A DNA stretch of 64,000 nt from Deltaproteobacteria bacterium (lineage in GTDB: Bacteria; Desulfobacterota; Deferrimicrobia; Deferrimicrobiales; Deferrimicrobiaceae). The stretch covers positions 682,001 through 746,000 of the forward strand of contig JAKAHC010000001.1 of NCBI GenBank assembly GCA_021815305.1, in the 5' to 3' direction. This document shows positions 6,064-48,420 of this stretch, piece after piece (positions within the stretch are counted from its first letter, which is position 1; the number at the start of each line of letters is the position of its first letter). The notes under the pieces were generated by a model. It saw only the letters and a program-made list of their open reading frames with translations, ran no database searches and was not told the origin of the DNA. The position numbers and the translations under genes are program-made.

Positions 6064-6151
6064 GGAGGGATGGCCGAGCGGCTGAAGGCGGCGGTCTTGA
6101 AAACCGCTGAGCGGAAACGCTCCGTAGGTTCGAATCCTACTCCCTCCGCCA
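6064..6151 (+). tRNA. tRNA-Ser (anticodon TGA)
   Basis: The acceptor 5' strand GGAGGGA pairs with TCCCTCC. The anticodon arm is GCGGT-CT-TGA-AA-ACCGC, there is a long class II variable arm, and the T-arm is GTAGG-TTCGAAT-CCTAC. The discriminator is G and CCA is encoded. It decodes UCA/UCG-type serine codons. The 3' end is not followed by the repeat found after the next two tRNA-Ser genes. Confidence 0.95.
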
Positions 6152-6180
6152 GGACGTATCCACGGGATGGCGGCAGAACC

Positions 6181-6274
<94 letters not shown>

Positions 6275-6298
6275 GATTCACGGCATCCGGAGGGCCGG

Positions 6299-6439
6299 GG
6301 ATTCGAACCCGAGCCCGCCGCCGACCGGACAGGGAGGAACAGGGCGACGTTCGGGAGCCCGGCAGGCGGGCAAGGCGCCGGGGAGGCGAAGGCCTGGATG
6401 GCCGGAGCCTCGGCGGGCGAATCCCTCCCTCTCCGCCAT
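6299..6439. repeat. 141-bp direct repeat, copy 1, ending in an orphan tRNA-Ser 3' end
   Basis: This block matches 6639-6779 base for base at a constant offset of 340 bp except for one G/A difference (6383 versus 6723). It begins GGATTCGAACCCGAG (an inverted T-arm-like sequence). It ends with CGAATCCCTCCCTCTCCGCC plus AT, identical to the 3' end of the preceding tRNA-Ser but without a T-stem partner or any other tRNA part upstream. It contains no convincing gene. Confidence 0.9.
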
Positions 6440-6490
6440 GATTCACGGCATCCGGAGGGCCGGGGATTCGAACCCGAGCCCGCCGCCGAC
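6418..6490. repeat. Partial tandem copy of the tRNA-3'-end repeat unit
   Basis: Positions 6418-6490 repeat 6253-6325 (offset 165 bp). The copy starts inside the 22-base tRNA-Ser 3' end, runs through CCATGATTCACGGCATCC and stops just before a new sequence that leads into tRNA-Ser(GGA). Together with 6253-6417 it makes an incomplete tandem array of a 165-bp unit. Confidence 0.85.
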
Positions 6491-6515
6491 GATGTTGCGC
6501 CAAAACCGTACGAAC

Positions 6516-6609
6516 GGAGAGGTGTCCGAGCTGGCCGAAGGAACGCGACTGGAAATCGCGTAGGTGGCTAATCCCCGCCTCGAGGGTTCGAATCCCTCCC
6601 TCTCCGCCA
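6516..6609 (+). tRNA. tRNA-Ser (anticodon GGA)
   Basis: Acceptor GGAGAGG/CCTCTCC, anticodon arm CGCGA-CT-GGA-AA-TCGCG, long variable arm (TAGGTGGCTAATCCCCGCCT), T-arm GAGGG-TTCGAAT-CCCTC, discriminator G, CCA encoded. It decodes UCC/UCU. Its final 22 bases are repeated 169 bp downstream at 6758-6779. Confidence 0.95.
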
Positions 6610-6849: not shown

Positions 6850-7362
6850 ATGAAAAAGTCCACGCTGTTGGTCGCCGCGTTCATGATGGTTGTCCTTGCC
6901 GGGGCGGGTTGCAAGAAGCAGCAGCCGCCTCCGCCGCCGATGCCCCCCCAGGGCGCGACCGGCATGCCCGGCGGTTCGCCGCACGGTGAGATGGCGCCCG
7001 CCGCGGAAAAAAAGGTCGTGGTCCCCGATTCGGTGAAGAACGCCTGGAAAGCGGTGAAGGTCGAGGTGGAATTCAAGGACAAGAAGACGAAAAAGGAGTT
7101 TTCCGTGCCCCTGAACTCCGAGTTCAAGGTGCCCGATTCCGACCTCGTGCTGAAGGTCGGGGATTTCCTCCCGAACTTCTCGATGTCGACCGACCAGATC
7201 ACCTCCGCCTCCGACAAGCCGGAGAACCCCGCCGTCCGCATGGAGGTGGACCAGGGAGGCAAGGAGATCTTCCACGGGTGGCTGTTCGCGAAGTTCCCGT
7301 CCGTGCATCCCTTCCAGCACGACAAATACGGCGTCGTGCTTCTGGAAGGGGTGAAGAAATAG
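6850..7362 (+). CDS. DUF2155-like lipoprotein
   Basis: A 170-residue predicted lipoprotein. A lysine-start signal peptide ends in the lipobox VLAGAGC at about residue 20, followed by a proline-rich linker (KKQQPPPPPMPP). The mature domain (about 60-170) ends with FHGWLFAKFPSVHPFQHDKY, which resembles the GW-F-x-P-x-F-x-H-x-Y pattern of DUF2155 proteins; their function is unknown. GGAGGAACG lies just before the ATG. The gene stands alone between the tRNA-Ser repeats and a strong terminator. Confidence 0.8.
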   Translation: MKKSTLLVAAFMMVVLAGAGCKKQQPPPPPMPPQGATGMPGGSPHGEMAPAAEKKVVVPDSVKNAWKAVKVEVEFKDKKTKKEFSVPLNSEFKVPDSDLVLKVGDFLPNFSMSTDQITSASDKPENPAVRMEVDQGGKEIFHGWLFAKFPSVHPFQHDKYGVVLLEGVKK

Positions 7363-7383
7363 CCCGCGGATCGCCCGGCGCGA

Positions 7384-7418
7384 GGGGGATGGCCGGGAGG
7401 GCCGTCCCCCTATTTTTT
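7384..7418 (+). terminator. Rho-independent terminator after the DUF2155-like gene
   Basis: GGGGGATGGCC (7384-7394), loop GGGAG, GGCCGTCCCCC (7100-7110 relative to the local block, i.e. ending 7410) form an 11-bp stem with one G-T pair, followed by TATTTTTT. The T tract overlaps the last codons of the convergent suhB gene. Confidence 0.8.
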
Positions 7419-8195
7419 CGCCTCCCGCAGCACCTCGATCATCCGCCCGTGGATCTGTCCGTTCGTGGCAAGAAGATCGGGCTGGTGGATGTCGTACGGC
7501 CCGCCGTCGAGCCTGGATGCGACGCCCCCCGCCTCCTTGAGGATCAGCAGGCCGGCCGCGGTGTCCCAGGGCCTCAGCTTCAGCTCCCAGAACCCGTCGA
7601 AGCGACCGCAGGCCAGGTAGCACAGGTCGAGCGCCGCGGAGCCGTCCCTGCGGATCGCCTGGCCGGTGAAAACGAACGCCCGGAAATAGTCGAAGTTGTT
7701 GTCCGAAGACGTCCTCACATCGTAGGCGAAGCCGGTGGCGAGCAGCGACTTCCGCAGTTCCCGGGTATTCGATACCCGGATGCGCTCCCCGTTCCGGTAC
7801 GCCCCTTCCCCCGGCGACGCGGTGAACGACTCCTCCAACAGGGGATCGAAGACGGCGCCCGCCACCACCTTCCCGTCCCGTTCCACCGCGACGGAGACGC
7901 AGAAGCAGGGGTAGCCGTGCGCGTAGTTCGTGGTGCCGTCCAGGGGATCGACGATCCACCGGTACGGCGAGGGGGAGGTGCGCTCCGGGCTCTCTTCCGA
8001 CAGGACTCCATGGTCCGGATACCGCCTGCGGATCCTTCCCAGGATGTACTCCTCGGACTCCCGGTCCACGTCCGTGACCAGGTTGATCTCCCCCTTGAAA
8101 CGGATTGTCTGCCGCCGGCCGTAGTTCCGCCGCAGGATCTCCCCGGCCCCGCGTGCCGTCTCCTCCGCGAACGCCAGCAGTTCCCGATGCTCCAT
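7410..8195 (-). CDS. suhB: Inositol monophosphatase family protein (SuhB-like)
   Basis: A 261-residue soluble phosphatase of the FIG superfamily. Metal site 1 is LSEESPE near residue 65, metal site 2 is WIVDPLDGTTNYAHG at about 78-92, and the C-terminal motif is LRPWDTAAGLLILKEAGG near 200. It should hydrolyse inositol-1-phosphate or a related sugar phosphate with Mg2+; in many bacteria SuhB also assists rRNA antitermination. The ATG at 8195 has AGGAGG 7 bases upstream, so longer in-frame starts were rejected. It is convergent with the lipoprotein gene and divergent from the transporter operon. Confidence 0.9.
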   Translation of the reverse strand: MEHRELLAFAEETARGAGEILRRNYGRRQTIRFKGEINLVTDVDRESEEYILGRIRRRYPDHGVLSEESPERTSPSPYRWIVDPLDGTTNYAHGYPCFCVSVAVERDGKVVAGAVFDPLLEESFTASPGEGAYRNGERIRVSNTRELRKSLLATGFAYDVRTSSDNNFDYFRAFVFTGQAIRRDGSAALDLCYLACGRFDGFWELKLRPWDTAAGLLILKEAGGVASRLDGGPYDIHQPDLLATNGQIHGRMIEVLREAKK

Positions 8196-8216
8196 CGCGC
8201 CCTCCTCTTTTCCCCG

Positions 8217-8246
8217 TCGCAAAGCCCGGGTACCGGCGATTATAAT
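8217..8246 (+). promoter_or_regulatory. Candidate promoter for the nickel/cobalt transport-larA operon
   Basis: A perfect -10 hexamer TATAAT lies at 8241-8246. A weak -35 (TCGCAA, 8217-8222) sits 18 bp upstream. It lies in the 120-bp space between divergent suhB and the small lipoprotein gene. I saw no clear NikR-type palindrome or known metal riboswitch between it and the first start codon. Confidence 0.45.
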
Positions 8247-8315
8247 ATGTGGGGTGCGCGGCCCCCCGAAAAGTTCCGCGGAAAACCCGGCGGCGCAAGG
8301 ACGGAGACCCGATCG

Positions 8316-8471
8316 ATGAAACCTCGCACTGCTCCGCTTCTCTTGTTGATCCTTCTGCTTCTGCCCGCCTGCGCCACGACGAAGGCCTCGAATCCGTGGA
8401 AACCGGGGGACACCGTGGTATGCCCTCACTGCGGCCGCGAGTTTCCCCTGCCGGAAAAGAAAGGGAATTGA
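8316..8471 (+). CDS. Small lipoprotein with a CPHC zinc-ribbon-like motif
   Basis: A 51-residue peptide. MKPRTAPLLLLILLLLPAC is a signal peptide with lipobox LPAC, so the mature protein is about 33 residues on the membrane surface. It contains DTVVCPHCGREFPLP, a CxxC knuckle that could bind metal. It is the first gene of the operon, 16 bp before cbiM, which suggests a link to nickel/cobalt handling, but that is context only. No family recognised. GGAG precedes the ATG by about 10 bases. Confidence 0.7.
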   Translation: MKPRTAPLLLLILLLLPACATTKASNPWKPGDTVVCPHCGREFPLPEKKGN

Positions 8472-8487
8472 CGGGAAGAGACCGGAA

Positions 8488-9180
8488 ATGCATATCCCGG
8501 ACGGGTACCTCGGTCCTCCCACCTACATCGCCGGGTACGCAGTGTGCGCCCCCCTCTGGGCCGTCGCCGCGCGAAAGGTCCGTCGCACCCTCGACGCCCG
8601 CCGCGTCCCGCTGCTGGCCATCTCCGCGGCGTTCTCGTTCCTGGTGATGATGTTCAACATCCCCGTTCCCGGGGGGACCACCGGGCACGCGGTGGGGGCC
8701 GTGCTCGTCGCCATCGCCGTGGGTCCGTGGGGGGCCATGCTTTCCCTAAGCATCGCGCTGGTCATCCAGGCGTTGCTCTTCGGGGACGGCGGGATCACCG
8801 CGATCGGCGTCAACTGCTTCAACATGGCGTTCCTGATGCCCTTCACGGGACACTACCTTTACCGCGCGCTGGTCCGATTCCTTCCCGCCCCGAGGGGGAT
8901 GGGGATCGCCGCCGGCATCGCCGGATACGTGGGGCTGAACCTCGCGGCGTTCTCGACGGCCGTCCTCCTGGGCATCCAGCCTCTCTTGCACACCGGGGCC
9001 GACGGGCGGGCGCTCTACGCTCCCTACCCGCTGTCCGTGACGATCCCCGCCCTGATGGTCGAACACCTCCTCCTGTTCGGCGTGGCGGAAGGGTTCATCA
9101 CCGGCCTTGCCGTATACTATCTGCAGAAGTCCCGGTCCGCCTGGATCCTCGTGCCCGCGGGAGAGAGGGATGCGAAATGA
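8488..9180 (+). CDS. cbiM: Nickel/cobalt ECF transporter substrate-binding component CbiM/NikM
   Basis: A 230-residue integral membrane protein beginning MHIPDGYLGPP. The N-terminal Met-His-Ile-Pro-Asp-Gly is the diagnostic metal-binding start of CbiM/NikM (His2 and the amino terminus ligate Ni2+ or Co2+). About six to seven hydrophobic segments follow, with conserved VPGGTTGHAVGA near residue 65 and FGDGGITAIGVNCFNMA near 95-110. It is the S component of an ECF ABC importer in the inner membrane. The stop overlaps the next gene as ATGA. Confidence 0.93.
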   Translation: MHIPDGYLGPPTYIAGYAVCAPLWAVAARKVRRTLDARRVPLLAISAAFSFLVMMFNIPVPGGTTGHAVGAVLVAIAVGPWGAMLSLSIALVIQALLFGDGGITAIGVNCFNMAFLMPFTGHYLYRALVRFLPAPRGMGIAAGIAGYVGLNLAAFSTAVLLGIQPLLHTGADGRALYAPYPLSVTIPALMVEHLLLFGVAEGFITGLAVYYLQKSRSAWILVPAGERDAK

Positions 9181-10452: not shown

Positions 10453-11362
10453 ACGTCACGCGGACGAAGACCGGAACGGTTCCGGAGATCCCCTCCTGCG
10501 TCTCGCGGACGTCCACTTTTCCTACGAAGGGGGAATCCCCGCCCTCTCCGGCCTGACGATTTCCGTTTCCGCCGGAGAGCGGCTCGCCGTCCTCGGGGCC
10601 AACGGGTGCGGCAAATCCACGCTCCTGCGGCTTCTGGCGGGGCTGATCTTTCCGCACCGGGGAACCTACAACGCCTTCGGCAGGGAGATCACGGACACCC
10701 TCCTCGGCAGCTCCCCCTTCGGGATGTTCTTCCGGAAGGAAGTGGGAATCCTCTTCCAGAACGTGGACGCCCAGCTGTTCAACGCCACGGTGGAGGAGGA
10801 GATCGCCTTCGGCCCGTTGCAGATGGACGAGGCGAGGGACGAGGTCGCGCGGAAGGTGCGGGATGCGGCGGAGGCGTTCGGACTCGGCACGCTCCTCGGC
10901 AGGCCCCCTTTCGCCCTCTCCGGGGGAGAGAAAAGGAAGGTTGCCCTCGCGGCGGTGATGGCGACGGACCCTTCGGTGCTCCTCCTCGACGAGCCCACCG
11001 CCGGGCTGGACCCGCGCAGCAGCAGCTCTCTGGTCGACCTCATCCTCGCGGCGGGCGAGGGGGGAAAGACGGTGGTCACCGCCACCCACGACCTCCACAT
11101 CGTACAGGGGATCGCCACCCGGGTCCTCGTGATCGGGGAGGACCGGAAGGTTCTCGCCGCCGGCACGCCGGAGGAGATCCTTTCCGACCGGGAGCTTCTC
11201 CTCGCGGCGAACCTCGTCCACCGGCACCGCCACGCGCACGAGGATTACTGGCACGAGCACGAGCATGAGCATCCCGGGATTTTCCACGGCCACGAACACG
11301 ATCACGGACAGGAACCCGGCCGTCCCGGCGGCGGCCCGACCGACGAAGGGAGGAACCGGTGA
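10430..11362 (+). CDS. cbiO: Nickel/cobalt ECF transporter ATPase CbiO with histidine-rich tail
   Basis: A 310-residue ABC ATPase. Walker A is GANGCGKST (56-64), the Q-loop is ILFQNVDAQLF (about 107-117), the signature is LSGGEKRK (163-170), Walker B is VLLLDEPTAGLD (183-194) and the H-loop is TATHD. The last 50 residues are unusual: HRHRHAHEDYWHEHEHEH and a further HGHEHDHG. Such tails bind Ni2+ or Co2+ and suggest metal buffering or sensing at the cytoplasmic face. GTG start within cbiQ; the end overlaps larA as GTGA. Confidence 0.92.
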   Translation: MPVPTSSERHADEDRNGSGDPLLRLADVHFSYEGGIPALSGLTISVSAGERLAVLGANGCGKSTLLRLLAGLIFPHRGTYNAFGREITDTLLGSSPFGMFFRKEVGILFQNVDAQLFNATVEEEIAFGPLQMDEARDEVARKVRDAAEAFGLGTLLGRPPFALSGGEKRKVALAAVMATDPSVLLLDEPTAGLDPRSSSSLVDLILAAGEGGKTVVTATHDLHIVQGIATRVLVIGEDRKVLAAGTPEEILSDRELLLAANLVHRHRHAHEDYWHEHEHEHPGIFHGHEHDHGQEPGRPGGGPTDEGRNR

Positions 11363-12669
11363 AACAGCGCAAGGAGACGCCGACGGACCGCGGAAAGCGG
11401 CCCGTCGTTCTGCGGTACGGCAAGGGAGCGGTCCCGCTCCCGGAGGGGCTCTTTCCCCGCGTGGAGGTCCTCGCGGCGCATCCGCCGCAGGTCCCCCACT
11501 CCGGGGAGGAGCGCATCGCGCAGGTGCTGGCGAGACCGAGCGGGTCCCTGCCGCTGTCGCGCCTGGTCGCCCGCGGCGACCGCGTCGCCGTGGCCGTTTC
11601 GGACGTGACCCGGTACAGCGCAACGGAGAAGGTCCTCCCTCTCCTCCTGCGCGAGACCGACGCAGCCGGCGTCCCGCGGAACCGCGTGACCCTTTTCGTC
11701 GCGCGGGGGACTCACCGCGCGATGACGGAAAGCGAGCTTCGCGATGCGATCGGCCCGGAGATCGATTCGGGGGTCCGCGTGGAGCAGTCGGACCCGGAGG
11801 AGAACCTCGCCGAACTGGGGAAGACGACCCGGGGGACGCGGGTCCTGGTCCACCGTCCGGTGATGGAGCACGACCGGATCGTCCTCACGGGGACGATTTC
11901 GTTCCACTACTTCGCGGGGTTCGGCGGGGGACGGAAGGCGCTGGTCCCCGGCTGCGCCGGGAAGGCCACGGCGCACCAGACCCATTTCCGGATTTTCCGG
12001 ACCGACGGGCCGGGGAAGCATCCCCTCGCGCGGGCGGGCGTCCTGGCGGGGAACCCCGTCCACGAGGACATCGTCGATGCCGTGGCGATGGCATCCCCCG
12101 CCTTCCTGGTGAACACACTGCTCACGCCGGGGAAGGAGATCTTCGACGTGGTGGCCGGCCATTGGCAGAAGGCGCACGAGGAAGGGTGCGCCCGGTACGC
12201 GAACCATTTCCGGGTGGGGATCGCGAAGCGGTTTCCCCTGGTGATCGCTTCCGCCGGAGGGTTCCCCAAGGACATCAACATCATCCAGGCCCACAAGGCG
12301 CTGGACAACGCGTTCCAGGCGACGGAGCCGGGGGGCGTGCTGGTTCTGCTCGCGGAGTGCCCGGACGGATTCGGAAGCCCCAACTTCTTCCCGTGGTTCC
12401 GGTTCCAGGAGCCCGCGGATCTGGAAAGGGAGTTGCGGGAGAACTACCAGATCTACGGGCAGACCGCGCACGCGGTCCTTTCGAAGACCCGCGCCTGCAA
12501 GGTCGTCCTCGTCTCCACTCTCCCCCCGGAGGACGTGGAGGCGATGGGGATGATCCCCGCCGCGTCGTTCCCGGATGCGATCCGTGCGGCCAAGGGGGCG
12601 CTGGGCGAGCTGCCCGTACCGCTCGTCCTCCCCGATGCGGGGTACGTCCTGCCGCATCCCGCCGGGTGA
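11359..12669 (+). CDS. larA: LarA-family nickel-pincer racemase (lactate racemase-like)
   Basis: A 436-residue LarA/DUF2088 enzyme. Residues matching L. plantarum LarA are visible with conserved spacing: H119 in ARGTHRAMT (H108), H183 in SFHYFAGFGGGRK (H174), K193 in the same block (K184, pincer attachment) and H209 in AHQTHF (H200, Ni ligand). LarA enzymes use a nickel-pincer nucleotide cofactor to racemise or epimerise 2-hydroxyacids by hydride transfer. The substrate here is unproven, as the family has many specificities. Translational coupling (GTGA) to a nickel/cobalt importer supports nickel use; larB and larC lie at about 50 kb. Confidence 0.9.
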   Translation: MKQRKETPTDRGKRPVVLRYGKGAVPLPEGLFPRVEVLAAHPPQVPHSGEERIAQVLARPSGSLPLSRLVARGDRVAVAVSDVTRYSATEKVLPLLLRETDAAGVPRNRVTLFVARGTHRAMTESELRDAIGPEIDSGVRVEQSDPEENLAELGKTTRGTRVLVHRPVMEHDRIVLTGTISFHYFAGFGGGRKALVPGCAGKATAHQTHFRIFRTDGPGKHPLARAGVLAGNPVHEDIVDAVAMASPAFLVNTLLTPGKEIFDVVAGHWQKAHEEGCARYANHFRVGIAKRFPLVIASAGGFPKDINIIQAHKALDNAFQATEPGGVLVLLAECPDGFGSPNFFPWFRFQEPADLERELRENYQIYGQTAHAVLSKTRACKVVLVSTLPPEDVEAMGMIPAASFPDAIRAAKGALGELPVPLVLPDAGYVLPHPAG

Positions 12670-30756: not shown

Positions 30757-30915
30757 GCCCGGGTCTTCTGGCTTCCGGCGGCCTACTTCCCGCGCCTTCC
30801 CGCCCCGGGACCGGGACAGTGGCATCCTTGCGGGTTTCGTTCCGGTGACAGATGCGGGGCAGCGACGGACTCTCACCGTCTTCCCCGGTTTCCGCCCTGG
30901 GTAGAACCTTCGTAT
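30757..30915 (-). ncRNA. Cobalamin riboswitch upstream of btuB
   Basis: On the minus strand the RNA holds the B12-box GCCGGAAGCCAGAAGACC (30780-30763), GGGAAGGCGCGGG before it, CACTGTCCC, and the junction CGCTGCCCCGCATCTGT (about 30866-30850). These are the conserved elements of the class I AdoCbl riboswitch in the right order. It lies between btuD (stop 56 bp upstream) and btuB (start about 44 bp downstream). I saw no good promoter in the 56 bp, so it may act within the btuFCD-btuB transcript. Confidence 0.92.
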
Positions 30916-33794: not shown

Positions 33795-33875
33795 CGGGGG
33801 ATGGAACGCGCGCCGATCCGCAAAACCGCCCCGGCCCTTCTCCCGCGAAAGGCGACTCGGGTTCTTCCCCGCCGG

Positions 33876-34062
33876 GAAGGTCTCCTGGCTTCCGGTTACC
33901 GGCGGCCCGCCCGGGCCGCCCGCCTACTCTCCGCGCCTTCCCGCCCGGCTGCTTCCCGCACGGGCAGTGGCTTCGTTGCGGATTTCGTCGCCGGTTACAG
34001 TTGCGGGGCAGCGATGGCTTCGTACCATCTTCCCTTGCCCCGGCGAGGATTTCCGATCCTTA
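33876..34062 (-). ncRNA. Cobalamin riboswitch upstream of btuFCD
   Basis: On the minus strand, CTGCCCCGCAACTGTAACC (34011-33993) and the B12-box AACCGGAAGCCAGGAGACC (33897-33879) with GGGAAGGCGCGGAGAG between them make a complete AdoCbl riboswitch. A GC-rich optional arm (GGGCGGCCCGGGCGGGCCGCC) is present. It starts close to the predicted transcription start and ends about 80 bp before btuF. Confidence 0.95.
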
Positions 34063-47763: not shown

Positions 47764-48375
47764 TCACTTCCCGGGCAAATCGCGCGGCACGTAGCCGAAG
47801 GCCGCCAGCCGCTCCCCGGAGGCGGCGTAGGCGTCGGCGGCCATGTCGGCCACTCCCGTGGCGTCGATCCATTTGTTGTAGAAGTTGAAGAGCGCGCACA
47901 CCGTGATGGCGTCGTACAGCGCCTCCTCGGTCCAGCCGGAGGCCTTCGCCTCCTCGACGTCCTCCTTCCGAAGCCGGCTGGACTCCCCGTTCACCTTCTC
48001 GATGAACGCGAACAGCGCCTTCTCCCGATCTCCGATCGGAGCGGTCCGGTAATCCCGCAGCACCGCGTCGACCAGCGGGCGGTCTCCCAAAAGGGCCGCC
48101 GCGACCGCGGCGTGGGAGCCGATTCAGAACAGGCAGTCGTTGCGCCGCGAGGTGAAGGCGGCGATCAACTCGCGGAAACCCGCCGGCAACGGAGAGGGCC
48201 CGCGCATCACTCCCTGGGTGAACCGCGAAAGGAAATCGGTCCGGTCCGGTTTGTAGGCGAACAGGTGCATGATCTGCGGGACCGGACGGCCCGCGGCGCG
48301 CAGCACGCCGATCAGGCGCGCATACGCGCCGCCGCCGTCGGCTTGCTCGACTTCGGACAGAAACATCGGACGCAT
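47764..48375 (-). CDS. AhpD-like (carboxymuconolactone decarboxylase family) selenoprotein
   Basis: One 203-residue protein if TGA at codon 84 (48126-48124) is read as selenocysteine. The frame is MRPMFLSEVEQADGGG... to AAFTSRRNDCLF, then U, then IGSHAAVAAALLGDRPLVDAV and so on to the natural end after LFNFYNKWIDATGV and VPRDLPGK. This gives C81-x2-U84-x3-H88, the CxxC-x3-H redox centre of AhpD-type peroxidases with Sec in place of the second Cys. Sequence similarity to the family continues on both sides of the TGA with no frame change. AAAGGAG precedes ATG 48375 by 7 bases. A SECIS-like hairpin follows the TGA. Confidence 0.85.
48084..48118 (-). promoter_or_regulatory. Bacterial SECIS-like hairpin after the in-frame TGA
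   Basis: On the minus strand CTCCCA (48118-48113) pairs with TGGGAG (48089-48084), and CGCCGC (48112-48107) pairs with GCGGCG (48102-48097) around the loop GGTC (48106-48103). The GGUC loop begins 17 nt after the TGA, close to E. coli fdhF, whose SelB-binding loop is also GGUC. A 7-nt bulge lies on the 3' side. Confidence 0.75.
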
Positions 48376-48420
48376 GAAGAGCTCCTTTCGGGGGGATCCG
48401 CTCGGCGCCGGAACCGCCGG

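Follow-up and report, generated by a model that had tools for sequence, protein, structure and literature searches.

A gene on the minus strand of the window, the 64,000 nt stretch of DNA that was analyzed as a whole, almost certainly encodes an AhpD-like oxidoreductase of the TIGR01926 family (47764..48375), in which UGA at codon 84 would be read as selenocysteine (Sec) by means of a GGUC hairpin. The gene fits the definition of the catalogued TIGR01926 AhpD-like CxxU selenoproteins, and the kind of enzyme has been known since 2005. In that year, 27 AhpD-like CxxU selenoprotein sequences belonging to COG2128 were found in the Sargasso Sea (Zhang et al., 2005, PMC1088965). Such proteins were found again in 2008 (PMC2398784), and a 2026 review lists the AhpD-like selenoprotein under TIGR01926 (PMC13188914). 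The statement in the earlier note on this DNA that AhpD-like proteins have been reported among bacterial selenoproteins is thus correct (PMC1088965, PMC13188914). With the gene described here and its relatives, this family of selenoproteins, listed in catalogues though still uncharacterised, now reaches into bacteria of soil and the subsurface.

Reading frame, family and active site

Under translation table 11 the gene is split into an 83-residue ORF (48375..48124) and a 108-residue ORF (48090..47764), both on the minus strand, which are the two fragments that the earlier note expected from automated annotation. The two pieces share their frame, with one TGA (48124..48126) between them, also as described in that note. 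Its interval, 48084-48375, took in the N-terminal half and the hairpin, but the gene continues to 47764. Apart from the TGA at codon 84, codons 1-203 contain no stop or frameshift, and reading through this codon gives a product of 203 residues, ...SRRNDCLF-U-IGSHAAV..., which is followed by a terminal TGA. A Shine-Dalgarno-like AAAGGAG, read in the sequence, is located six bases upstream of the ATG at 48375 (48382..48388, minus strand).

The read-through protein scored 93.8 bits against TIGR01926 (peroxidase-related enzyme), above the curated cut-off of 81.8, and 39.2 bits against the Pfam CMD model, whose cut-off is 23. When the halves were searched separately, the C-terminal one fell below the TIGR01926 cut-off, and for the N-terminal one no model in NCBIfam reached E ≤ 0.001. 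The protein also resembles NF041238 (AhpD_rel_CFYUT) in combining an AhpD domain with CxxU, but that model is 357 residues long and the score against it, 40.9 bits, is below its cut-off of 175. AlphaFold predicted the read-through protein to form one all-helical AhpD-like domain (mean pLDDT 95.5) in which Sec starts helix 82-96. The closest structures to the predicted fold are the AhpD-core peroxidase-related proteins 2prr, 6k40, 3c1l and 2pfx, which have the same fold (TM-score to 2pfx 0.79, query-normalised) and the same C..C...H arrangement, but carry Cys where Sec is placed here and are only about 22-27% identical in sequence. The two profile scores and the match to AhpD-core structures agree with the original description of the protein as AhpD-like.

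The active-site stretch (48112..48171, minus strand) contains E69 (48171..48169), C81 (48135..48133), U84 and H88 (48114..48112) in the motif E69...C81-L-F-U84-I-G-S-H88, and the clade as a whole follows the pattern C-x-F-U-[IT]-x-[SA]-H. In 68 aligned rows, C and the Sec or Cys were found in every row, and E and H in 67 rows each. The spacing of E69, C81, U84 and H88 equals that of Glu118, Cys130, Cys133 and His137, which constitute the proton relay of Mycobacterium tuberculosis AhpD (PMC3141380). The E-(11)-C-x-x-C/U-x-x-x-H relay and the all-helical AhpD core place the protein in the AhpD-like family, and the TGA does stand, as was proposed, where the CxxCxxxH of AhpD-like enzymes has Cys, the residue found there in distant homologues.

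The product would be a thiol/selenol oxidoreductase of 203 residues, AhpD-like and belonging to TIGR01926, the peroxidase-related subfamily. On the basis of family knowledge, SelB with Sec-tRNA(Sec) would bind the GGUC hairpin and deliver the tRNA to the UGA of codon 84. Sec84 would substitute for the second active-site cysteine, Cys133 in M. tuberculosis AhpD, as the attacking residue; it would be activated by the Glu69-His88 proton relay and resolved by Cys81 as a selenenylsulfide, via which peroxides or disulfides would most likely be reduced. For SelB binding and Sec insertion, as for the peroxidase-type chemistry and the substrate, we infer from what is known of these families.

Conservation of codon 84 and the downstream hairpin

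One scan of genome_contigs returned 17 homologous loci with 58-85% identity, labelled Deltaproteobacteria, Gemmatimonadota, Acidobacteriota, Planctomycetota and Bacteroidetes, and codon 84 was TGA in all 17. Many homologues come from metagenome bins and their organism labels may be wrong; two of them, L039 and L040, nest inside the source organism's own family in the tree, which suggests either mis-binning or transfer. In 298 genomes from the phylum of G070 we obtained 54 matches, 50 of which have an in-frame TGA and four no stop. The four stop-free matches carry TGC at the position of codon 84, which fits the expectation for Cys counterparts. An alignment of homologues for Cys at this codon had been proposed as a check, and it gave a graded picture: above 38% identity every homologue has TGA, and distant homologues have TGC or TGT. 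Comparison with ten homologues gave dN of 0.12-0.37 and dS of 0.54-1.10 downstream of the TGA, and dN of 0.08-0.32 and dS of 0.63-1.97 upstream. Purifying selection persists downstream of the codon 84 TGA. Separately, a distant AhpD-like match with 27% identity (L036, genome G043) has TGA at the Cys position in the motif NQCVY-TGA-EDGH, and two further loci, L104 and L105, represent a separate AhpD-like Sec clade (CFYU) with another hairpin past the TGA (ACGGAGCGGGTCTCCGT in L104).

The apical stem-loop CGCCGC-GGTC-GCGGCG (48097..48112, minus strand) starts 11 nt past the TGA, and its GGUC loop lies 17 nt past the TGA. The earlier note likened this loop and its distance to those of the E. coli fdhF SECIS, and rightly so, as the same loop follows the UGA after 18 nt in fdhF. 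In contrast, the stem sequence differs, the gene families are unrelated and the element here has no conserved lower stem. The criteria for bacterial SECIS (bSECIS) elements specify a loop of 3-9 nt with G in the first two loop positions, an upper stem of 4-16 bp, a distance of 16-37 nt from the UGA and an energy of at most -7.5 kcal/mol (PMC13188914). Here the loop GGUC is 4 nt, the stem 6 bp and the spacing 17 nt, and the energy of the 45-nt stretch is -24.7.

In a single sequence the inner hairpin is unremarkable, because His-Ala-Ala-Val-Ala-Ala in a GC-rich gene yields it in 5.7% of synonymous re-drawings of this gene (0.25% for the two stems combined). In 6.6% of the re-drawn sequences the folding energy was as low or lower, and single-sequence folding was therefore rejected as proof of a SECIS. 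The hairpin is accepted as the SECIS element because of the comparative data, in which the family retains the inner stem and Cys genes have lost it. A comparison of 59 distinct Sec genes showed the GGTC loop and the five inner pairs in every one and the full six pairs in 57, the outermost pair being the only one ever broken (two genes). Compensatory changes of pair type occur at two hairpin pairs, from G-C to U-A in 8 genes and from C-G to G-U in 11, counts that the tree suggests go back to few independent changes. For 25 chosen sequences the covariation score was 0.204 versus 0.031 when shuffled, and slid structures scored at most 0.058. Of the six pairs, the seven Cys homologues can form between one and three each. 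In an alignment of 19 sequences, the synonymous site is invariant in all four of codons 89-92 (GCC GCG GTC GCG), and in none of the 46 other conserved columns of fourfold or higher degeneracy outside the hairpin codons, whose mean codon diversity is 0.53.

The outer stem, CUCCCA/UGGGAG (48084..48118, minus strand), was rejected as part of the SECIS: its six pairs are complete in only 8 of the 59 genes, and it is probably accidental. Of the two 6-bp stems originally described, the inner one is therefore kept in the family and the outer one is not. A covariance model of the TGA and hairpin scored the codon 84 site at 51.6 bits and the next match in the source genome at 21.1 bits. The model found no other user of the hairpin in this genome; the remaining matches were weak and partial, and none had a correctly spaced TGA.

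The compensatory changes in the hairpin are visible in the protein. Around the loop, the family has the variants H-A-A-V-A-A, H-G-A-V-A-S and H-S-A-V-A-E, that is, residues 89 and 93 flank the loop-encoded A-V-A and change jointly (A/A, G/S, S/E). They co-vary because their codons (48109..48111 and 48097..48099, minus strand) are paired in the SECIS hairpin, as GCC/GCG, GGC/TCG and TCC/GAG. The Cys relatives, with HAAAAR and HVIAAE, break this pairing rule, which supports the view that RNA rather than protein would drive the coupling. Dozens of Sec genes sharing one hairpin with compensatory variants, together with Cys relatives having lost it, make up an unusually clean natural data set in which the constraint that a SECIS places on its host protein can be tested directly.

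Selenocysteine machinery and alternative readings of the TGA

The source genome (97% complete) encodes SelA (538.7 bits), SelB (301.9 bits) and SelD, and has a tRNA-Sec (74.1 bits) whose anticodon was identified as TCA by ARAGORN. The presence of selAB, selC and selD elsewhere in the genome, which had been supposed beforehand, is hence confirmed, with the genes scattered over contigs C1, C2, C5 and C6. The SelD match (locus L018, C5:107630-108406) itself carries one in-frame TGA, and SelD of this genome is probably a selenoprotein too. Among the genomes tested in the phylum of G070, SelB was found in 31 of 34 with a Sec-AhpD gene, in none of the three with only a Cys form and in 26 of 40 without a homologue. 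Of the 17 genomes that supplied the first homologues, three lack a full SelB match: G074 has tRNA-Sec, G072 has a C-terminal piece of SelB and G060 has neither. In the case of G060, the homologue's contig may be mis-binned.

Such machinery bears on whether a suppressor or an altered code could place a residue other than Sec (Trp or Cys) at the TGA. The inserted residue is deduced here from sequence, which gives this reading some room; nevertheless it is very improbable, given the tRNA-Sec with TCA anticodon and SelA, SelB and SelD in the genome. In addition, TGA also ends this same gene as its terminal stop, and distant relatives align Cys at codon 84. Cys is the usual counterpart of Sec. The fit of the hairpin to the bacterial SECIS model also speaks against a Trp or Cys reading (PMC13188914).

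The probability is smaller still that the gene is a pseudogene with decaying halves, or that a sequencing error turned a Cys codon into TGA. Automatic annotation would indeed give two fragments, and the inner hairpin can arise by synonymous re-coding at the frequency given above. However, the recurrence of the identical TGA across dozens of genera and independently assembled genomes already refutes this explanation, and the 203 codons without further stop or frameshift, the low dN relative to dS downstream and the conserved RNA hairpin all stand against it. An equally slight chance attaches to a true stop separating two functional polypeptides, whether as a split protein or as a truncation under regulation. 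A TTG at 48090 could serve as start codon of the downstream ORF, but the TGA falls within the active-site motif, where helix 82-96 begins, a stop there would sever the catalytic C..U...H, the N-terminal half has no family match at E ≤ 0.001 and the Cys homologues are continuous.

Relatives and selenocysteine cassettes

Read as a Sec gene, the locus shares with the catalogued TIGR01926 CxxU selenoproteins the subfamily model, the position of Sec and the type of SECIS directly downstream (PMC1088965, PMC13188914). The clade to which it belongs comes from relatives of Deltaproteobacteria bacterium CSP1-8 and from genomes of Gemmatimonadota and Acidobacteriota, and was set beside the catalogued examples by description. 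No conserved gene neighborhood that could serve as a clue to function was found; of the tested neighbors in the window, only MaoC recurs, at one locus.

Experiments are made possible by Gemmatirosa kalamazoonensis, a relative that has a name and a completely sequenced genome. On its megaplasmid (L118, genome G155), a relative (ahpD, 7135-7722) is followed by selA (7782-9149), selB (to 11017), selD (11059-12105) and tRNA-Sec (12128-12224) within about 5 kb, where the assignment of selA comes from its position and its similarity to the SelA of L119 rather than from a separate profile search. The contig in question, C4, agrees with plasmid NZ_CP007130.1 in length and match position. Another locus (L119:4381-10150, genome G319) contains a set of tRNA-Sec, selD, selB and selA with a Sec-AhpD gene on each side. 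We tentatively propose, while leaning towards doubt, that the AhpD Sec clade may be a main client of a compact, portable Sec cassette of ~5-6 kb and that its SECIS may dictate how the protein evolves, with residues 89 and 93 able to change only in concert. Homologues on Streptomyces plasmids were considered as CxxC controls and rejected, as the one that was read has T-x-x-C.

Two other features were noted in the window. Two cobalamin riboswitches lie ~3 kb apart on the minus strand (30761-30886 and 33858-34058; Rfam RF00174, 82.6 and 74.2 bits), and three tRNA-Ser genes with the anticodons tga, gct and gga stand in a row at 6064-6609.
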